Under the pieces are notes generated by a model, which saw only the letters and a list, made by a program, of their open reading frames with translations, ran no database searches and had not been told where the DNA came from. From Leptolyngbya sp. KIOST-1 (GTDB taxonomy: Bacteria; Cyanobacteriota; Cyanobacteriia; Phormidesmidales; Phormidesmidaceae), in assembly GCF_000763385.1 (NCBI RefSeq), contig NZ_JQFA01000002.1:1116001-1180000 (forward strand): a stretch of DNA of 64,000 nucleotides. Reading direction: 5' to 3'. How positions within the stretch are numbered: the stretch's first letter is position 1; the number at the start of each line of letters is the position of its first letter. Shown piece after piece: positions 7,158-14,344 of the stretch. The translations under genes were made by a program, and so were the position numbers.

Positions 7158-9659
7158 TCAAGTTCTGACCAGAGCCTGCTGCTCAAGCCAGCCCTGGAGC
7201 TGATCCACCGTGGTAAAGGCCATCAGTTTCTCCAGCAGGTCGCCCCGGCTAAAGTACTGGGCCACGTCGGCCAGCTGGGCCAGGTGATCCTGGGTGGTGC
7301 CCTGGGCCGAGGTCAGCAGCAGCACTACCACGTGGACGGGCCGATCGCTGCGATCGCGTTGAATCCCCCGCCGATGCACCCCCAGACACAGGCGTGGGCC
7401 CTTGAGTTTGGGCACGCGGGCGTGGGAGATGATCACCCCCGGCAGCACCTCGCTGGCGTAGCCCACATCGTCGAAGGCCAGGGCCTTGAGCAAGCTGCTA
7501 TGCCGCGGGTCGTCGCGATCGATCACCTGGCTGAGCAGGGTATCCACGGTCTCCTCGTAGGTGGTGGTGGTGAGGTCGAGCAGCACCCGCTCGGGGCTGA
7601 GCAGGGTCTCCAGGGCCAGGGGCTGGGCCGCGCCAAAGTAGTGGGCCCCGCGCTCGGAGGGGTAGAGCACCATAAAGCTGAGCCGCAGGTCGGCCAGGCG
7701 CTGGGGCAGCCGCTCCAGGGTGCGATCGTAGGCCACGGTGCCCTCGCGGGCGCTGACCAGCACCACCAGGTCCTTGTCGCTGGGGGCTCCCTTCAGGTGG
7801 GCGATCGCCCCGGTCCAGTCGGGCACCTCGGTGAACCCGCTGCTGGTTTCGATGGGCACCGCGGCAAAGTGCTGGCGATAGGCCTCGGCGGTGTCGCCCA
7901 CCACATACCCCTGCAGGTCGGCCCCAAGCTGGGCGGCCAGGTGTTTGAGCGATCGCACCGCCTCGTAGAAGCCGGGGTTGTGGTCGATCATGGCGGGCAG
8001 CAGCACCACCAGCCGCTGGAAGGTGCTCACCCCGTGGTCAAACTTGCACACCCACACCTGCTGCGGGGCCTGCTCCAGCATCTGGTCAATGACGGAACCA
8101 AAGATGCGCTGCCGGGCCGAGCGGGTGCCGTTCCAGCCAATCACAATGTCACTAATGCGGCGCTCGGTGGCCGCTTCCACAATGCCGGAGGCGGGGTTAC
8201 GGGCCACCCGCGTCACAGGGTTGACGGGCAGATCCAACTCCACCCCGTGCACCACGGCGTGGGCCAGCAGCCGCTCGGCGGCCACCACACTGTTGTCGGT
8301 GTCCTCGGCCTCGGTTTCCTCAGCAATCACCGACAGGGGATAGATGGCCTCCTCCGACTTACCATCCCGCAGCAGGGCCGCCACATTGATCAGGGCTTCG
8401 CTGGTGGCGGGGTTGGCCAGGGGCACCAGCACCCGCTGGGGGGCCTGGCGCGGTTCGTACTGCTGCTCGTCCTGCTCACGGGCCACCTGGCGACCAAAGC
8501 GATCCACCACCGAGGGGCCGAGAATGCAGGTGGCAAAAATCATCAGCACCACGCCGTTGAGCACATCGTCGCCAATGATGCCCAGCTCGTAGCCCACCAG
8601 GGTGGCGGCCAGGGTGGCGGCGGCCTCGCAGGTGGAGAGGCCAAACATCACCCAGCCCTCGGCGGCGGTGTAGTTGTAGATCCGCCGGGTGACACCAGCG
8701 GCGATGAACTTGGTGATCACGTTGGTGGCCAGCATCGAGATCATCACCACCCAGGCGGTGAGGCTGCTGAACAGCACCGACACATCCACCAGCAGGCCAA
8801 TGAAAATTAGAAAGAAGGGAATGATAAAGGCGTCGCCAAAGAACTGAATCCGGGTCATCAGGCGGCTGCGCTCGGGAATCAGCCGGTTCAGGGTCAGCCC
8901 CACCAGAAAGGCACCCAAAATCGCCTCCGTCCCCACGGCCCGGGCCAGAAACGCGCCGATAAAGACCACCGCCAGTACAAACACAAACTCGCTCTTGCCG
9001 CCGTCCTCCACGTTGCGAAAGAACCAGCGGGCCAAGGGCGGCAGTAGGTAGATCACCGCCGCCACGTAGATCACCATGGCCAGGGCCAGGGAGACCCAAA
9101 ACATGGTGGTCAGCTCCCCCTCAAAGGCGCGGGCCACCACCACCAGCACCAGCAGGGCCACGGTGTCGGTGAGAATGGTGCCGCCCACGGTGGTCACCAC
9201 CGCGTCGTTTTTCATGATGCCCAGGCGGCTGATGATCGGGTAGGGCACCAGGGTGTGGGAGGCAAACATGCTGGCAATTAGAATCGCCGCGATCCAGTCG
9301 AAACCCAGCAGGTAGTGGAAGATCAGCGTGCCCGCCAGCTGCGGAATGGTGAAGGTGATGACGCCAAACGCAAAGCTGCGATCGCGGTTTCTGCGGAACT
9401 GGTTCATGTTGATCTCCAGCCCCGACAAAAACATGATGTAGAGCAGGCCCACATTGCCCAACAGCTCGATCGCCTGGCCCCGCTCCAGCACGTTCAGCAC
9501 GCTGCTGCCCAGCACCACCCCGGCCACAATCGGGCCAATTAGCCCGGGCAGCTTGAAGCGCTCAAAGATCAGCGGCGTGGCCAGAATCACCACCATACAG
9601 AGGCCGAAGATCAAAATTGGGTCTTCTACGGGCAGGGGCATCCCTAAAATTGAGTCCAT
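7158..9659 (-). CDS. CPA2-type cation/proton antiporter fused to UspA and EIIA domains
   Basis: An 833-residue protein. The start at 9659 (MDSILGMPLPVEDPI) is supported by AAGGA seven bases upstream. Residues 1 to about 400 form a Na+(K+)/H+ exchanger of the KefB/NapA (CPA2) type with about 12 membrane segments (LPGLIGPIVAGVVLGSSVLN, LLYIMFLSGLEI, GAFLARAVGTEAILGAFLVG). About 415-680 look like one or two degenerate UspA nucleotide-binding domains. About 690-833 form a PTS EIIA type 2-like domain with His746 in ISHARVP, the phosphorylated residue of that family. Ion exchange would thus be coupled to cytosolic sensor domains. It lies downstream of a c-di-AMP riboswitch and two usp genes. Confidence 0.9.
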   Translation of the reverse strand: MDSILGMPLPVEDPILIFGLCMVVILATPLIFERFKLPGLIGPIVAGVVLGSSVLNVLERGQAIELLGNVGLLYIMFLSGLEINMNQFRRNRDRSFAFGVITFTIPQLAGTLIFHYLLGFDWIAAILIASMFASHTLVPYPIISRLGIMKNDAVVTTVGGTILTDTVALLVLVVVARAFEGELTTMFWVSLALAMVIYVAAVIYLLPPLARWFFRNVEDGGKSEFVFVLAVVFIGAFLARAVGTEAILGAFLVGLTLNRLIPERSRLMTRIQFFGDAFIIPFFLIFIGLLVDVSVLFSSLTAWVVMISMLATNVITKFIAAGVTRRIYNYTAAEGWVMFGLSTCEAAATLAATLVGYELGIIGDDVLNGVVLMIFATCILGPSVVDRFGRQVAREQDEQQYEPRQAPQRVLVPLANPATSEALINVAALLRDGKSEEAIYPLSVIAEETEAEDTDNSVVAAERLLAHAVVHGVELDLPVNPVTRVARNPASGIVEAATERRISDIVIGWNGTRSARQRIFGSVIDQMLEQAPQQVWVCKFDHGVSTFQRLVVLLPAMIDHNPGFYEAVRSLKHLAAQLGADLQGYVVGDTAEAYRQHFAAVPIETSSGFTEVPDWTGAIAHLKGAPSDKDLVVLVSAREGTVAYDRTLERLPQRLADLRLSFMVLYPSERGAHYFGAAQPLALETLLSPERVLLDLTTTTYEETVDTLLSQVIDRDDPRHSSLLKALAFDDVGYASEVLPGVIISHARVPKLKGPRLCLGVHRRGIQRDRSDRPVHVVVLLLTSAQGTTQDHLAQLADVAQYFSRGDLLEKLMAFTTVDQLQGWLEQQALVRT

Positions 9660-9728
9660 AGAGAGCGTCCTTAGGAATAGATAAAGGATGGGCAATTAGA
9701 AGGAAGGTTTGTGAACCGTGGCCGTTAC

Positions 9729-9764
9729 GGCACTGGGCCAAGGCGATCGCCTTGGCCCAGTGCC
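9729..9764. repeat. 36-bp perfect palindrome in the antiporter leader
   Basis: Two 18-bp arms with no loop, centred on the HIP1 octamer GCGATCGC (arms 9729-9746 and 9747-9764). It lies 70 bp upstream of the antiporter start, in the transcribed leader below riboswitch A. Neither side is followed by a T-run, so it is not a classical terminator. A protein operator or an RNA hairpin acting with the riboswitch are both possible. Confidence 0.85.
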
Positions 9765-9900
9765 ACTCAATCTCGATAGGTGCCACCGAGAGCCACCGAA
9801 ATTTGGCGCTAGGACGTTTCCATGGCGTATGCTCCAGAGTTCCAGGTCGATACGAAACCGTATCGCTGTGTACCAACCAAGGACACTGATCAATTCTGTG

Positions 9901-9914
9901 CTTCCTTAAGGAAG
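9901..9914. repeat. 14-bp palindrome CTTCCTTAAGGAAG
   Basis: A perfect palindrome about 20 bases past the 3' end of riboswitch A on the minus strand. It might be part of the expression platform, but no T-run follows. Confidence 0.6.
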
Positions 9915-9933
9915 GCTGAATTGCAGTTTCCTC

Positions 9934-10064
9934 TCAACGCCGACGAGGTTAGCTGACGGGCTAGGACTGAGAGCTGTCCTTCCTGGGTGGTGGTCAAAGG
10001 GTGACGCCTTTGACCCGTCAGGATTGGCCCCGTGAGTTGGTTCCCCCGTTCTAGAGCAACGGGG
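9934..10064 (-). ncRNA. c-di-AMP riboswitch (ydaO/yuaA class), copy A
   Basis: Read on the minus strand, the order is AGAACGGGGGAACCAAC, then GGGGCCAATCC, a variable hairpin, GGACAGCTCTCAGTCC, and the near-invariant 3' block CCCGTCAGCTAACCTCGTCG. These match the conserved parts of the ydaO leader in order and spacing as I recall it from Bacillus (GGGGGACCC, GGGGUGAAUCC, CCGUCAGCUAACCUCGU). CGTTG at the 5' side can pair with CGGCG at the 3' side to close P1. It ends about 275 bases before the antiporter start. Known members bind cyclic di-AMP and usually lower expression of potassium and osmolyte functions. I see no clear terminator, so the switching mechanism is open. Confidence 0.9.
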
Positions 10065-10120
10065 GCCGCGATCGCGACCCCCGACGCCCTGGATTAGGCT
10101 GTTCTAATTGTTCTCCAATT

Positions 10121-10150
10121 TTTATAGCACCGGATTTCAATTGCGCTCAA
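10121..10150 (-). promoter_or_regulatory. Predicted sigma70-type promoter for riboswitch A and the antiporter
   Basis: On the minus strand TTGAGC (10150-10145), an 18-base spacer and TATAAA (10126-10121) lie just before riboswitch A and after the end of the usp gene. Position and layout are the same as for the promoter of riboswitch B. Confidence 0.55.
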
Positions 10151-10213
10151 TCTATCCGCAGATGTAGATCATCGCGACCCCCACACCTCCGCTATCCCCA
10201 CTTACCACGTCCG

Positions 10214-10738
10214 CTAAACAGACCCCTGAAGCTTTGGCTGCAACACCTCAACCTCCAGACTGCTGTCGTTGGGCACCACAACGGTAGGGCAGGGGGCATG
10301 GTTGGCCACGTGGTCACTCACGCTACCTAGAATGAGCTTTTTTAAGCCCCGCTTGCCGCTGTGGCCCACCACGACCACGTCGGCTCCCCAGGCTGTGGCA
10401 AGCTGGCAGATTAGAGCGCCTGGGTCAGCTACTTCGCAGACAAAATCGGTCGGAATGTTGTGTCTTAACGCCTCGTTGCGCAACCGCTCCAGCCAGGTGC
10501 GGGCCTCCTGTAACTGTTGGAGTTGGGCGGCGTCTTCGTCGTGCTGCACCTGGCTGGAGCTGCGCAGGCCCACCCCAGCATCGATCATCTTCCCCAGGTT
10601 TTCGTAGGGTTTGACCGGCAGGCTGTGGACCAGGCGCAGCTGTCCCTGGGAGGCCTCAGCCAGTCCCAGGGCGTAGTCAAAGACGCGGTCGGAGGCCGCC
10701 GTGCGATCGAGGGCCACCAGGATGGTGTGATAGTTCAC
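10214..10738 (-). CDS. Universal stress protein (UspA family)
   Basis: A 174-residue protein. I prefer the GTG at 10738 (NYHTILVALDRT follows) because GGAG lies 8 bases upstream; a GTG three codons earlier would sit almost on that site. The N-terminal VALDRTAASDRVFDYALGLA and the C-terminal ATP-binding signature GHSGKRGLKKLILGSVSDHV (G-2x-G-9x-G-S) are complete, so nucleotide binding is likely. It is the second gene of a two-gene operon, 31 bp after the other usp, and precedes riboswitch A and the antiporter on the same strand. Soluble Usp partners fit a role in sensing energy state for the transporter. Confidence 0.9.
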   Translation of the reverse strand: MNYHTILVALDRTAASDRVFDYALGLAEASQGQLRLVHSLPVKPYENLGKMIDAGVGLRSSSQVQHDEDAAQLQQLQEARTWLERLRNEALRHNIPTDFVCEVADPGALICQLATAWGADVVVVGHSGKRGLKKLILGSVSDHVANHAPCPTVVVPNDSSLEVEVLQPKLQGSV

Positions 10739-10769
10739 TGGGCTCACTCCAAAAAAGATGCCAATTCTC

Positions 10770-11348
10770 TTACTTGGGCAGCCCCAGCACCGAGCAGGGG
10801 GTTTGAGGATCGAGCTGCTTTACCAGGGGGTGCTTGGCTGTGTGGCAACCCACCAGCAGCACCTCAGCCCCAATCTCTTTGGCCACCTGGCTGAGCTCGG
10901 TCGCCACCTGGCCCACCCGCAGGTGGGCGTTGAGCGAGCCGCGCCACTCGCTGGCCAGGCAGCGGGCCTGCCAGAGAATGCGATCGGCATTGGCGATGGT
11001 TTTGGGGCGCGTTTTATCGACCACGTAAACCACATGCACCTGCACCGGGTTGGGCCTGGCCAAACGGGTTTGGTGAGCCGCGCACAGGGCCAGGTCGAGG
11101 GCGGCCTGACTGTGGGCCGAACCACTGTATCCCACCACAAAGTTGATCGTTTGCTCGTCTATGCTGTTGGGGTCTTTAACCGGCGGTTTTGGCCGCAGCA
11201 GCAGCACAATGTCCTTAGCCAGATCGCGGCGACCCAGAGCCGCCTCTAACCGCACAACCATAGGCTTGATCGCGGCCTCGGGGGAGCCCTGAGGGGCGAT
11301 CGAATGACGCTGCCTTACCGGGGCAGGGGCGCGAGATTTGAGCTGCAT
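10770..11348 (-). CDS. Universal stress protein-like protein with N-terminal extension
   Basis: The ATG at 11348 (MQLKSRAPAPVRQ) has AGGAGGG directly upstream, which decides the start. The 192-residue product has a basic unstructured start of about 50 residues, then a Usp fold: INFVVGYSGSAHSQAALDLA, VQVHVVYVVD, and EIGAEVLLVGCHTAKHPLVKQL. The ATP-loop glycines of the second half are not conserved (GCHTAKHPLVKQ instead of G-2x-G-9x-G), so it may not bind nucleotide. First gene after riboswitch B, about 105 bases downstream of the aptamer. Confidence 0.82.
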   Translation of the reverse strand: MQLKSRAPAPVRQRHSIAPQGSPEAAIKPMVVRLEAALGRRDLAKDIVLLLRPKPPVKDPNSIDEQTINFVVGYSGSAHSQAALDLALCAAHQTRLARPNPVQVHVVYVVDKTRPKTIANADRILWQARCLASEWRGSLNAHLRVGQVATELSQVAKEIGAEVLLVGCHTAKHPLVKQLDPQTPCSVLGLPK

Positions 11349-11453
11349 GAGACCCTCCTGGAGCCTAGTTATAAACAGCGAACAAGCCGTGGCAACACGA
11401 CTTAGGACACTGAAACAACCAACGCATGGGCGTAAATGGTGAGATTCAGTCTC

Positions 11454-11578
11454 CCTCAATGCCGACGAGGTTAGCTGACGGGCTAGGGCTGAGAGATGCC
11501 CTTTTCCGATTACCCTCTATAGGGTTTAAGAACTCGGAAATACGCCCCTTTAACGGTTCCCCCGCTCTAGCAGCGTAA
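11454..11578 (-). ncRNA. c-di-AMP riboswitch (ydaO/yuaA class), copy B
   Basis: On the minus strand: ACGCTGCTAGAGCGGGGGAACC, then GGGGCG, a hairpin, GGGCATCTCTCAGCCC and CCCGTCAGCTAACCTCGTCG, the same conserved blocks in the same order as copy A and the known ydaO leaders. ACGCTG can pair with CGGCAT to close P1. The conserved blocks match copy A while the variable hairpins differ in length and sequence, which indicates two selected RNAs and not a recent duplicate. It lies before the usp-usp operon. Confidence 0.92.
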
Positions 11579-11639
11579 AGGCTTGTAAAGCGATTAGAGG
11601 CTGCGTGGTTAGATTAGGCTGACTTGTTCGATTCTCTCA

Positions 11640-11669
11640 ATTTTAAATCCGGAAAACAAAAAGCGTCAA
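11640..11669 (-). promoter_or_regulatory. Predicted sigma70-type promoter for riboswitch B and the usp operon
   Basis: On the minus strand TTGACG (11669-11664), an 18-base spacer and TAAAAT (11645-11640), each one or two bases from consensus. Transcription would start just before the riboswitch. Confidence 0.65.
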
Positions 11670-12185
11670 GCGGAAGATTACGTTATATAACCATTTCTGG
11701 ATTCCAAATCGTTGAAATAATTAAGCTCTTCAATTGACCCTAAATCCACTGACAAAAGGAAATACATTGCTCTGGATTTAGCCCTCAATAAGACCTGTAC
11801 TTATTTACTATTAAAAGATTTATCTTAACGGCCAAGCATCATCCTTGAGAAGGATTTTAGAACACTGACCTCGACGACAGCCCCTCCTTCTGAACCGATG
11901 CAAAAGGGTTTAGCGACCTTAAAAGCCCCTATTTCCTTGATCCCTATTCCTAGCACTCAGGGTTTTGGTAGTTCGAAGCATCCTGTCTGGCGGGGGCTGG
12001 CAAGCCTGGCTGCTCCGTACTATCCGATAGGATTTTGGTGTGTCATGCGATCGCTGACCCATCCCACTTGTCAATAGGAATTTCTACTTGGCGCATGCAA
12101 TTATCAGTTTCCCCTGCACAGGTTGGGCGGCGCAATAGCAGACGCTGTTGGCGAATTGTTTCTTTACGGAATTGCTCGGCGTTGG
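11670..12185. other. Gene-free AT-richer stretch upstream of riboswitch B
   Basis: I find no convincing gene here. The first 170 bases are clearly more AT-rich than the surroundings; the remainder has no long open frame or similarity I recognise. It separates the riboswitch promoter from the decayed permease zone. Confidence 0.6.
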
Positions 12186-12258
12186 CCCCCTGAATCCCCC
12201 AACTTTGGGGGACTTTGACCTTCCGCCCCCCCAGGATTGGGGGCTGGGGGGGCTTTTC
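12186..12258. repeat. Interspersed palindromic repeat (GGGGGACTTTGA type), copy 1
   Basis: A C-rich/G-rich inverted repeat with the core TTTGGGGGACTTTGA and a G-rich end, of the same family as 56253-56323. Its G-run merges with the start of the 279-bp duplication. Confidence 0.75.
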
Positions 12259-12527
12259 GGGGCAACTTTTTCAAGCGTACTTTGCAGATTGTTGATTTTG
12301 CCAACAGCATCAGCGCTAGCAGAACCCAACACAACCAGCCCTAGCGTTGGGTTCCACTCCATTTCACCCAACCTACACCTGATGGAATGTAGGGCAAACT
12401 AGCGGGCCAAATAATTTTCACTATCTGCCGCCAGCGGGGCATTTCTAACACCCGCGCCACGTCTAAATAGTCTTTGGCACACTGGCCACTTCCAAAGCCG
12501 TATTGATCACCGTCGGCCACAGGGAGG
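12249..12527. repeat. 279-bp direct duplication, copy 1
   Basis: Appears identical to 12533-12811, with 5 bases (gcggt) between the copies. Each unit carries a short AACCCAAC...GTTGGGTT inverted repeat and about 130 bases of a permease gene remnant (KDYLDVARVLEMPRWRQIVK on the minus strand). Confidence 0.93.
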
Positions 12528-13095
12528 GCGGTGGGGCTTTTCGGGGCAACTTTTTCAAGCGTACTTTGCAGATTGTTGATTTTGCCAACAGCATCAGCGC
12601 TAGCAGAACCCAACACAACCAGCCCTAGCGTTGGGTTCCACTCCATTTCACCCAACCTACACCTGATGGAATGTAGGGCAAACTAGCGGGCCAAATAATT
12701 TTCACTATCTGCCGCCAGCGGGGCATTTCTAACACCCGCGCCACGTCTAAATAGTCTTTGGCACACTGGCCACTTCCAAAGCCGTATTGATCACCGTCGG
12801 CCACAGGGAGGTGATAAAATAACAAAAATAGCCGATGGATTGGCCAGGTTAAAAGTGGCCAGGGCAATGGGCAACCAGGCCACCGGAGACACCGGACGAA
12901 AGAGCTGCACCAGCGGGTTTATGGCGGTCATGGCGCGGGGCGACAGGCCAATCCAAAAGCCTACTTGAATGGCCACAAAAGTACCTAGCAAAAAAAACCA
13001 GCAGCACCCGACGCAGACTGGCCAACAGCAGCCAGCCAATGCCCAGATTGCCCGGCCCACGCCGGAAAAAAGGATTGGTAATGTAGTCGATTAAC
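12391..13095 (-). pseudogene. Nitrate/taurine-type ABC permease (NrtB/SsuC family), frameshifted and duplicated
   Basis: Minus-strand fragments give the core of a binding-protein-dependent permease: NPFFRRGPGNLGIGWLLLAS, GFWIGLSPRAMTAINPLVQL, FRPVSPVAWLPIALATFNLA, then in other frames SLWPTVINTA and AKDYLDVARVLEMPRWRQIV with IIWPASLPYI. These belong to one protein but are split by at least three frameshifts, several at homopolymer runs, and the C-terminal part is replaced by an AACCCAACC-type repeat. Part of the fragment is present twice because of the 279-bp duplication. No start, binding protein or ATPase gene is nearby. A relic of a nitrate, cyanate or sulfonate importer; the substrate cannot be told. 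Confidence 0.8.
12533..12811. repeat. 279-bp direct duplication, copy 2
   Basis: Second copy of 12249-12527. This one is contiguous with the rest of the permease remnant on its right, so it is probably the original and copy 1 the added unit. Confidence 0.93.
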
Positions 13096-13366
13096 CCAAT
13101 CTATCCGCCGACATAGGTGCTTTTGCTTTATTTATTCGTCTGGCATAAAGCTCCCCTAGGGGCTCCTTGTTTTGATCTGCTAGTAACAGTTTTAATTGGT
13201 CTTCAAAATTGGAACGTCATCACTTTGCAGGGTGAACCAAGGCCAGCCTAAGGGATGCACTGGCCTGTTGGCACAACACACCCTTTATTAGCGCGATCGC
13301 AGTTGTTTCCCACTCCAAACTGCTGTCGGAGCTACATATCCAAAGACAGATTCTTGCCCAGGTTAT

Positions 13367-14344
13367 CTAACAGTAAGCCTGGGTAAGTTGGGAGAGCCGA
13401 GCTTTTTCGTCGGAGCTGAGTTCCCAACCCAAAGCCCCGGCATTCTGGGCGGCCTGGCGGGCATTTTTGGCACCGGGAATGGGCAGCACATTGCCTTGGC
13501 ACACCAACCAGTTGAGGGCTACCTGGGCCGGGGTGCGCTCCCGCCGCTCGCCAATCTCCTGAAGCGCCTGGATCACCGGCATCAGCTTGGTCAGTCCGCC
13601 TTGGCTAAAGCGGGGGTCAAGCCAGCGCGCTCCGGCGGGCTTGAGATTGGACTCTGGGGTGTATTTTCCGGTCAGCAACCCCTGGGCCAGGGGGCTGTAG
13701 GCCAGAATGGTGACCCCCAACTCCCGCGCTGTGGCGATGATGCCATTGGTCTCGGGCTTGCGGTTGAGCAGCGAGTACTGTACCTGGTTGGCCGCCAGGG
13801 GCACCCCCTGTTCGGCCAGGGAACGATGGGCGTCGCGCATTTGCTGGGCCGAGTAGTTGCTCACCCCCACAGCCCCAATCCGGCCCCGCTTAACCTCCGC
13901 CCCCAGGGCCAGCATCAGATCCTTCTGGCTGAGCAAAAAGTCGAGGGGCCAGTGCACCTGGTAGAGCGCCACCGAGGCCACCTGAAGGCGATCGAGGCTG
14001 GCGGACAGGGCATCGGCCACGGATTGCTTGGAAAACCGCCACGGCAGCGGGAAGTATTTGGTAGCTACCACAGCGTTCTGGGTCACCTGCTGGGGGCGCT
14101 GCTGCATGAAGCGGCCAATTAATTTTTCTGACTGGCCAAAGCCATAAATCTCGGCGGTGTCAAACAGCGTCAGGCCAGCATCCAGCGCAGCGGCAAAGGC
14201 AGCATGTAAATCACTGTCGCTGTAGGCCTTGCCGTAGTCCCAAAAGAGCGAGTCGCCCCAGGCCCAGGTGCCTACGCCCAGCGCCGGTACAACCAGACCA
14301 TCCGGGCCAAGGGTAACGGTTTGCAGATTGGCGATGGGGGACAT
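13367..14344 (-). CDS. Aldo/keto reductase
   Basis: A 325-residue NADPH-dependent oxidoreductase of the TIM-barrel aldo/keto reductase superfamily. The catalytic tetrad is visible: Asp and Tyr in LFDTAEIYGFG, Lys in VVATKYFP and His in LYQVHWPLD. The NADP-binding C-terminal motif IPGAKNARQAAQNAGALG is also there. The substrate is unknown; such enzymes reduce aldehydes and ketones, including lipid-peroxidation products and methylglyoxal. It diverges from the peroxiredoxin gene across 90 bp, which hints at shared stress control, but I see no operator. Confidence 0.93.
   Translation of the reverse strand: MSPIANLQTVTLGPDGLVVPALGVGTWAWGDSLFWDYGKAYSDSDLHAAFAAALDAGLTLFDTAEIYGFGQSEKLIGRFMQQRPQQVTQNAVVATKYFPLPWRFSKQSVADALSASLDRLQVASVALYQVHWPLDFLLSQKDLMLALGAEVKRGRIGAVGVSNYSAQQMRDAHRSLAEQGVPLAANQVQYSLLNRKPETNGIIATARELGVTILAYSPLAQGLLTGKYTPESNLKPAGARWLDPRFSQGGLTKLMPVIQALQEIGERRERTPAQVALNWLVCQGNVLPIPGAKNARQAAQNAGALGWELSSDEKARLSQLTQAYC

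Follow-up and report, generated by a model that had tools for sequence, protein, structure and literature searches.

Two riboswitches of the c-di-AMP class stand in series on the minus strand of the window (the whole 64,000-nt stretch of DNA that was analysed), the first (RS1) ahead of two usp genes and the second (RS2) ahead of nhaX, a CPA2 antiporter gene. On a slight balance of probability, these two switches of different descent control usp1-usp2 (RS1) and nhaX, formerly usp3-nhaX (RS2), most likely as OFF switches by which translation is lowered.

Both RNAs are confirmed as true members of the known class RF00379. In an Rfam cmscan run with gathering thresholds, RS1 (11446..11593, minus strand) matched the family at 67.7 bits (E 1.5e-13) and RS2 (9924..10110, minus strand) at 65.5 bits (E 6.1e-13), each against a gathering score of 38 and each spanning model positions 1–134. 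The initial annotation had called two ydaO/yuaA-class RNAs in the interval 9934–11669, which runs from the −35 region of RS1 almost to the end of RS2, the latter extending to 9924. It had also proposed the gene order riboswitch, two usp genes, riboswitch and CPA2 antiporter; the covariance model, run on both regions, bore out the first of these claims, and open reading frames (ORFs) together with domain matches bore out the second, the minus-strand order being RS1, usp1, usp2, RS2 and nhaX. Each aptamer holds a leader position on the strand of its genes, with RS1 97 nt before the usp1 ATG and RS2 264 nt before that of nhaX. A single DAC-domain gene for a diadenylate cyclase (129.2 bits) is predicted in the genome, which should therefore be able to make c-di-AMP, as is expected of a host of this RNA family, and both aptamers would be expected to bind this ligand. 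The 6.3-Mb genome contains three RF00379 matches, the third of which lies about 12 kb outside the window and leads a CitMHS/ArsB-type carrier. It is extremely improbable that the RS1 and RS2 matches are due to chance or are decayed, functionless copies: nothing was found to speak for this, the scores are far over the cut-off, and the aptamers are conserved beside the same genes across genera.

Start codons were chosen from SD sites and relatives. By ORF and domain match, usp1 (10770..11348, minus strand) encodes a Usp-family protein of 192 aa from ATG 11348, and usp2 (10214..10747, minus strand) encodes another of 177 aa from GTG 10747, with GTG 10738 a possible start. Of a third gene, usp3, there remains only the first ~100 nt (9722..9823, minus strand), an ORF of 4 aa that reads METS and then stops, as seen in blastn and tblastn comparisons to the usp3 genes of genomes G196 and G356. 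The nhaX leader contains, inside this remnant, a perfect 36-nt palindrome with a GCGATCGC core (9729..9764), which occurs at one place in the genome at ≤2 mismatches and, by eye, is absent at the same site of the G196 and G356 sequences. The nhaX gene itself (7158..9659, minus strand) encodes 833 aa from ATG 9659, behind its own SD, and its frame is open from TTG 9695 (845 aa). In 845-aa numbering, the product comprises a Na_H_Exchanger domain (Pfam PF00999, 193.3 bits, cut-off 26.2), a Usp domain (residues 420–551) and a PTS_EIIA_2 domain (698–838). Its best NCBIfam match, the CPA2 subfamily model TIGR00932, scored 108.5 against a cut-off of 238.3 and is thus below threshold. Among named records, the closest nhaX genes are those of Nodosilinea and Leptolyngbya, and the host is probably a cyanobacterium of the Nodosilinea group.

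In sequence, the membrane part of NhaX is related to the Na+/H+ antiporter 4bwz (74.8 bits), which we take to be NapA, and to KefC (8bxg, 31.9 bits); PtsN (4gqx, 23.8 bits) is a relative of the EIIA-like end, and each of these matches covers the membrane part only or the EIIA-like part only. The aspartate pair is DD in 4bwz and T164-D165 in NhaX, and the choice of cation (Na+ or K+) is not readable from the sequence. Within the EIIA-like domain, His746 is invariant in 6/6 aligned orthologues and, by comparison with EIIA proteins, is a candidate phospho-acceptor; a single ORF with an HPr domain (816 aa) is present in the genome, and a phospho-acceptor role for the EIIA-like domain is only possible.

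A further proposal of the initial annotation, a feedback circuit for K+ or Na+, did not hold up at the level of motifs. Such a loop would be closed if c-di-AMP were also a ligand of the free Usp proteins or of the Usp domain in NhaX, which appears quite improbable here; no result of the analysis linked the Usp or the EIIA domain to c-di-AMP. According to the available part of one report (PMC8214093), the Usp domains of KdpD do bind c-di-AMP, and, in the available parts of two others (PMC10117731, PMC12313861), the cyanobacterial Na+/H+ antiporter NhaS5 is among the proteins pulled down with c-di-AMP, making it a candidate parallel to NhaX. In the KdpD type, as that first report gives both motifs, (A/G/C)XSXSX2N is present and the ATP motif is lacking, yet [AGC]xSxSxxN is absent from NhaX, Usp1 and Usp2 alike. 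Instead, the Usp domain of NhaX has the ATP motif G-X2-G-X9-G-S without the core of the KdpD-type motif, Usp2 also has the ATP motif (GHSGKRGLKKLILGS), and Usp1 has neither.

RF00379 matches occur in 195/388 genomes of the class sample and in 24/26 genomes of the genus. Downstream of 100 non-genus matches, taken among the best-scoring matches listed plus further ones, the nearest gene on the same strand (up to 600 nt away) was recorded: it was an ABC permease in 32, an ArsB-type carrier in 23 and a Usp1-type gene in 20, with no such gene in 9; rarer neighbours were family d34 (3) and ABC substrate-binding, d53, d41 and d85 genes (2 each), and an ABC ATPase, NhaX, d21, d246 and d287 were found once each. 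Because of these counts, usp and NrtB/NMT1-type ABC transporter genes can be regarded as regular cyanobacterial neighbours of the switch. By coordinate comparison, all 21 usp1 loci of the genus adjoin a riboswitch (22 stretches, one gene being in two pieces). A same-strand riboswitch lies no more than 3 kb upstream of 7/7 nhaX orthologues of the genus (84–100% identity, one of them partial) and of 0/46 antiporter paralogues (35–47% identity, those at contig ends included), and so the riboswitch–antiporter link is specific to nhaX orthologues. In the class sample, 10/11 genomes with an nhaX orthologue (E ≤ 1e-140) have the riboswitch, namely six of the genus plus G121, G159, G027 and G184; in G193, none was found in about 3.5 kb upstream of nhaX. 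A riboswitch at nhaX is also present in two further named records, Nodosilinea sp. LEGE 06152 and Cyanocohniella sp. LLY, the latter with an nhaX that reads across two frames; contig L102 begins too near nhaX for the presence of a switch to be judged. Other neighbours were seen by eye in other cyanobacteria, including a P-type cation ATPase (L134, L143), a glycosyltransferase (L127) and an M23-like peptidase (L163). The contig of one nhaX relative also bears a cobalamin riboswitch on the opposite strand (L105:4637-4840).

The gene block takes several forms among relatives, and the layout, new to the initial annotation, is not unique. The simplest arrangement, RS-usp3-nhaX, is found in G121, G159 and LLY, and RS-nhaX without an intact usp3 is found in G027 and G184. 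Other loci read RS-usp1-usp2-nhaX (G303, G341 and G317) or RS-usp2-nhaX (G359), and in G303 and G341 an RS-ABC cassette lies directly upstream too. The layout of the window recurs with usp3 in G356 (RS-usp1-usp2-RS-usp3-nhaX) and is extended to three serial, same-strand c-di-AMP riboswitches in G196 (RS-ABC-RS-usp1-usp2-RS-usp3-nhaX) and, likewise minus usp3, in LEGE 06152. In all, 6/26 genus genomes have at least two switches on one strand within 8 kb. Full-length usp3 genes are present at five loci in several genera, which suggests that usp3 is ancestral at the nhaX locus. Here usp3 has decayed, and the original target of RS2 was probably usp3-nhaX, the unit led by the switch in those five other loci.

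The flanks of the window match G196, and pieces of a decayed NrtB-like ABC permease (12386..13088, minus strand), identified by sequence comparison, are a relic of an upstream ABC cassette. Because this permease has decayed upstream and usp3 is reduced to its remnant, the window looks like a reduced form of the three-cassette island. Traces of a third riboswitch that might have been lost next to this relic were also sought, and none was found at E ≤ 1 in 9600–13600. The decayed region upstream of RS1 additionally contains a tandem duplication (12239–12806) of two 284-nt copies with 99% identity.

Descent was examined in a maximum-likelihood tree of 66 aptamers plus 60 nt of platform, which included 21 ArsB-type switches and was rooted on that type. 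RS2 groups with the nhaX switches of G196, G356 and LEGE 06152 (100/99), RS1 lies within a usp/ABC clade (100/100), and both fall outside the clade of genus ArsB-type switches (98/100). RS1 and RS2 thus stand in different, supported clades, by which a recent tandem duplication is ruled out and the earlier claim that both are under selection is upheld in the form of their separate maintenance. The RS2 and usp/ABC clades join with modest support (94/83), at a node where, the program warns, long branches meet; it also warns of an unsettled bootstrap. Because of this join, the nhaX switches do not form one clade (3 changes); those of four other genomes branch outside both clades, and that of G184 is inside usp/ABC. 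Local copying of switches does occur, since the ABC and usp switches are sisters within G303 (99/90) and within G341 (91/90).

That each switch has its own promoter, as had been claimed, agrees with conservation alone, and both promoters are predicted. For RS1, the candidate is TTGACG-N18-TAAAAT (11640..11669, minus strand), the sole site returned by the promoter scan; since shuffled sequences yield 1.4 sites, the scan is at chance level and is no evidence for it. The TTGAC is invariant in 14/14 aligned usp1-type leaders (picked out of the 22 genus leaders available), and the −10 that goes with it is TAYAAT-like and variable. The scan made no call for RS2, where an extended −10, TGCTATAAA (10121..10129, minus strand), is predicted from the sequence. 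By eye, TGNTA is present in 8/9 aligned RS2-type leaders and TGNTATAA in 5; the element is weaker in G196, G027 and LEGE 06152, and none was seen in G184.

Downstream of each aptamer lies an expression platform. From leader alignments, that of RS1 (11349..11445, minus strand) comprises a putative GGGAGACUGAA/UUCAGUGUCCU competing stem, a hairpin round AAGUCGUG..CACGGCUU, and the SD AGGAGGG; that of RS2 (9824..9923, minus strand), delimited by leader comparison, ends in the SD CUGGAG, which precedes the start codon of the usp3 relic. Usp1-type and ABC-type leaders alike consist of GGGAGACUGAA, a variable hairpin, UUCAGUGUCCU, a second hairpin, the SD and the start; GGGAGACUGAA and UUCAGUGUCCU can pair, and, on our own reading of the family, GGGAGACUGAA may also hold the aptamer's pseudoknot strand. 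The start codon follows the end of the aptamer, as measured in the genus sets and nine nhaX-type leaders only, at 93–99 nt in 34/34 usp1/ABC-type leaders with an SD found (of 35), with RS1 at 97, and at 96–101 nt in 9/9 nhaX-type leaders from several genera. Such near-fixed spacing counts for a start-site mechanism, which would need it.

Complementarity of GGGAGACUGAA and UUCAGUGUCCU is conserved. Across 61 leaders, 91.0% of cells pair, versus 32–49% with the partner slid, a figure that leans to motif-bearing leaders because the 61 were chosen by eye from 77, with near-duplicates and motif-less leaders left out (among them L091, L094:6612, L095, L096, L108, L114, L131, L133, L138 and L190). 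Covariation in the competing stem did not exceed that of shuffles (3 pairs changed on both sides, with 58/500 shuffles as high; score, 262/500), and the stem is therefore conserved in sequence, while compensatory changes give no proof of it. Of 100 shuffles, 96 gave a weaker duplex than RS2 (p 0.04); the duplex of RS1 gave p 0.10. Per-leader duplex tests reached p ≤ 0.05 in 33/170 cases versus 3/170 for a control segment, and a simple pair count gave 8.65, compared with 8.12 in shuffles and 8.54 when other leaders were drawn at random. RNAalifold found no structure in 83 aligned leaders (score 0.0), and in smaller sets returned −22.7 for 35 usp1/ABC-type leaders (those of 40 matching the second-hairpin pattern, the five dropped being non-genus), −17.6 for 17 ArsB-type leaders (a hand-picked part of the genus set) and −11.9 for the nine nhaX-type leaders of several genera.

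A search for terminators found 0 terminator-like sites (GC hairpin plus U-tract) in 9600–12000. In a scan of the leader sets, which like the pair count used simple home-made scripts, such sites occur within the genus in 3/35 usp1/ABC-type leaders versus 11/17 of the ArsB type (hairpin plus T-tract), a contrast that vanishes outside the genus (9/32 ABC, 7/23 ArsB and 4/20 Usp1 leaders); 4/9 nhaX-type leaders have a terminator-like match. Modelled SD accessibility on ligand binding goes from 0.79 to 0.60 in RS1 and from 0.36 to 0.42 in RS2, and drops in 5/34 usp1/ABC-type and 3/9 nhaX-type leaders. By the same modelling, SD masking is supported for the ArsB type (10/17) and hardly for other types. 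By eye, a UUCUCCU in ArsB-type leaders (L065 and others) could pair with the aptamer 3′ strand or with the SD AGGAGA.

These features can be assembled into a model in which, at low c-di-AMP, the aptamer's 3′ end (P1 plus the pseudoknot strand, GGAGACUG) would pair with the platform segment CAGUGUCC and leave the start site usable. With c-di-AMP bound, the GGAGACUG strand would be kept in the aptamer, and the freed CAGUGUCC could form a stem that reaches the SD region and turns translation down. This would be clearest in RS2, where CAGUGUCC may pair with GGAACUCUG immediately before GAG. By analogy with the family, an OFF sign is likely for both switches, and a Dehalobacter c-di-AMP OFF switch follows the same competing-strand logic in the available part of its description (PMC9337991). 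The OFF/translation reading draws support from the RF00379 scores, the diadenylate cyclase, the linkage to nhaX (7/7 versus 0/46; 10/11) and usp1 (21/21), the 91.0% pairing, the spacing, the absence of terminators, the RS1 SD model and the RS2 duplex (p 0.04). It is weakened by the absence of covariation, the weak duplex and pair-count tests, the SD models of RS2 and of most other leaders, and the terminator counts outside the genus and in nhaX-type leaders. The output is probably translational, on mixed evidence, and translation control is mildly favoured over attenuation.

A transcriptional action, in which the freed CAGUGUCC helps a hairpin to stop RNA polymerase without a classical U-tract and nhaX is controlled without usp3, has a real though lesser chance of being correct. 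The c-di-AMP switch of a Na+/c-di-AMP tandem works through termination, as described in the available part of PMC9337991; terminator-like elements occur in most of the genus ArsB-type leaders (11/17) and in some ABC (9/32) and Usp1 (4/20) leaders outside the genus, and RS2-type switches persist near nhaX after usp3 loss in G000, G027 and G184. Against it count the empty scan of 9600–12000, the 3/35 of the genus usp1/ABC-type leaders and the near-fixed spacing before the start codon. The case for a purely translational control of nhaX is in turn weakened by the loss of usp3 and by the nhaX start, which lies 264 nt beyond RS2 behind its own SD, and these same facts, together with the palindrome between RS2 and nhaX, would suit RS2 being a relic that folds and binds but has ceased to control nhaX, the latter being translated from its own SD behind the strong palindromic hairpin. 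We consider this unlikely, as a full-length RF00379 match (65.5 bits) is retained; moreover, usp3 loss need not end control, because in LEGE 06152 it put nhaX exactly at the platform start codon, 99 nt after the switch. Control of nhaX by RS2 is accordingly likely, not certain, since usp3 is a remnant here and the switch of relatives leads usp3-nhaX. As the scan showed no intrinsic terminator in the stretch from usp2 to RS2, transcripts that start at the RS1 promoter and read through would encounter both switches on the way to nhaX. More speculatively, and with considerable doubt, it is conceivable that cyanobacteria share a c-di-AMP platform, often terminator-less and at a fixed distance from the start, for translation control of usp, nitrate-type ABC and nhaX genes, and that the Nodosilinea islands of two or three serial switches, with read-through passing several checkpoints, give the antiporter a steeper response than the Usp genes.

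Relative to known systems, RS1 and RS2 resemble RF00379 (ydaO/yuaA) riboswitches in their full-length aptamers above the cut-off, leader position, ion- or osmolyte-type targets and the diadenylate cyclase of the genome, and they differ in their targets, here Usp genes and a CPA2-Usp-EIIA antiporter, and in that no U-tract terminator was found in either leader. In cyanobacteria, the set of these switches, as far as the available literature excerpts extend, consists of slr0753 and osmoprotectant genes in general. The Synechocystis gene slr0753 (putative chloride efflux) carries a riboswitch of the same class in the same phylum (PMC10117731, available part); its candidate counterpart is the genome's third switch, and RS1 and RS2 are set apart from that type by lying outside the ArsB-type clade of the genus. 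Tandem c-di-AMP riboswitches are known as 77 doublets in which the aptamers adjoin with a terminator between them (PMC9481103, in the part available). Two same-class aptamers on the same strand with the same ligand are likewise found here, but usp1, usp2 and a predicted promoter stand between RS1 and RS2, and, with these genes intervening, the pair is not a tandem riboswitch in one untranslated leader. In the Na+-I/c-di-AMP tandem of Dehalobacter, the 3′ side of the aptamer competes with a downstream regulatory stem, as proposed here, with the difference that intrinsic terminators and a second ligand are used in that system (PMC9337991, available part). Our literature search, of partial coverage, returned no description of usp or antiporter targets or of the RS1-RS2 layout, and we do not claim that these are unreported. 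The block extends a known gene-control family in a real but fairly ordinary way: a Usp/EIIA-carrying cation antiporter and usp genes are well-supported additions to the cyanobacterial neighbours of c-di-AMP riboswitches, and the natural variation of the block (usp3 kept, lost or replaced, and one to three switches) is well suited to testing the targets of these switches.
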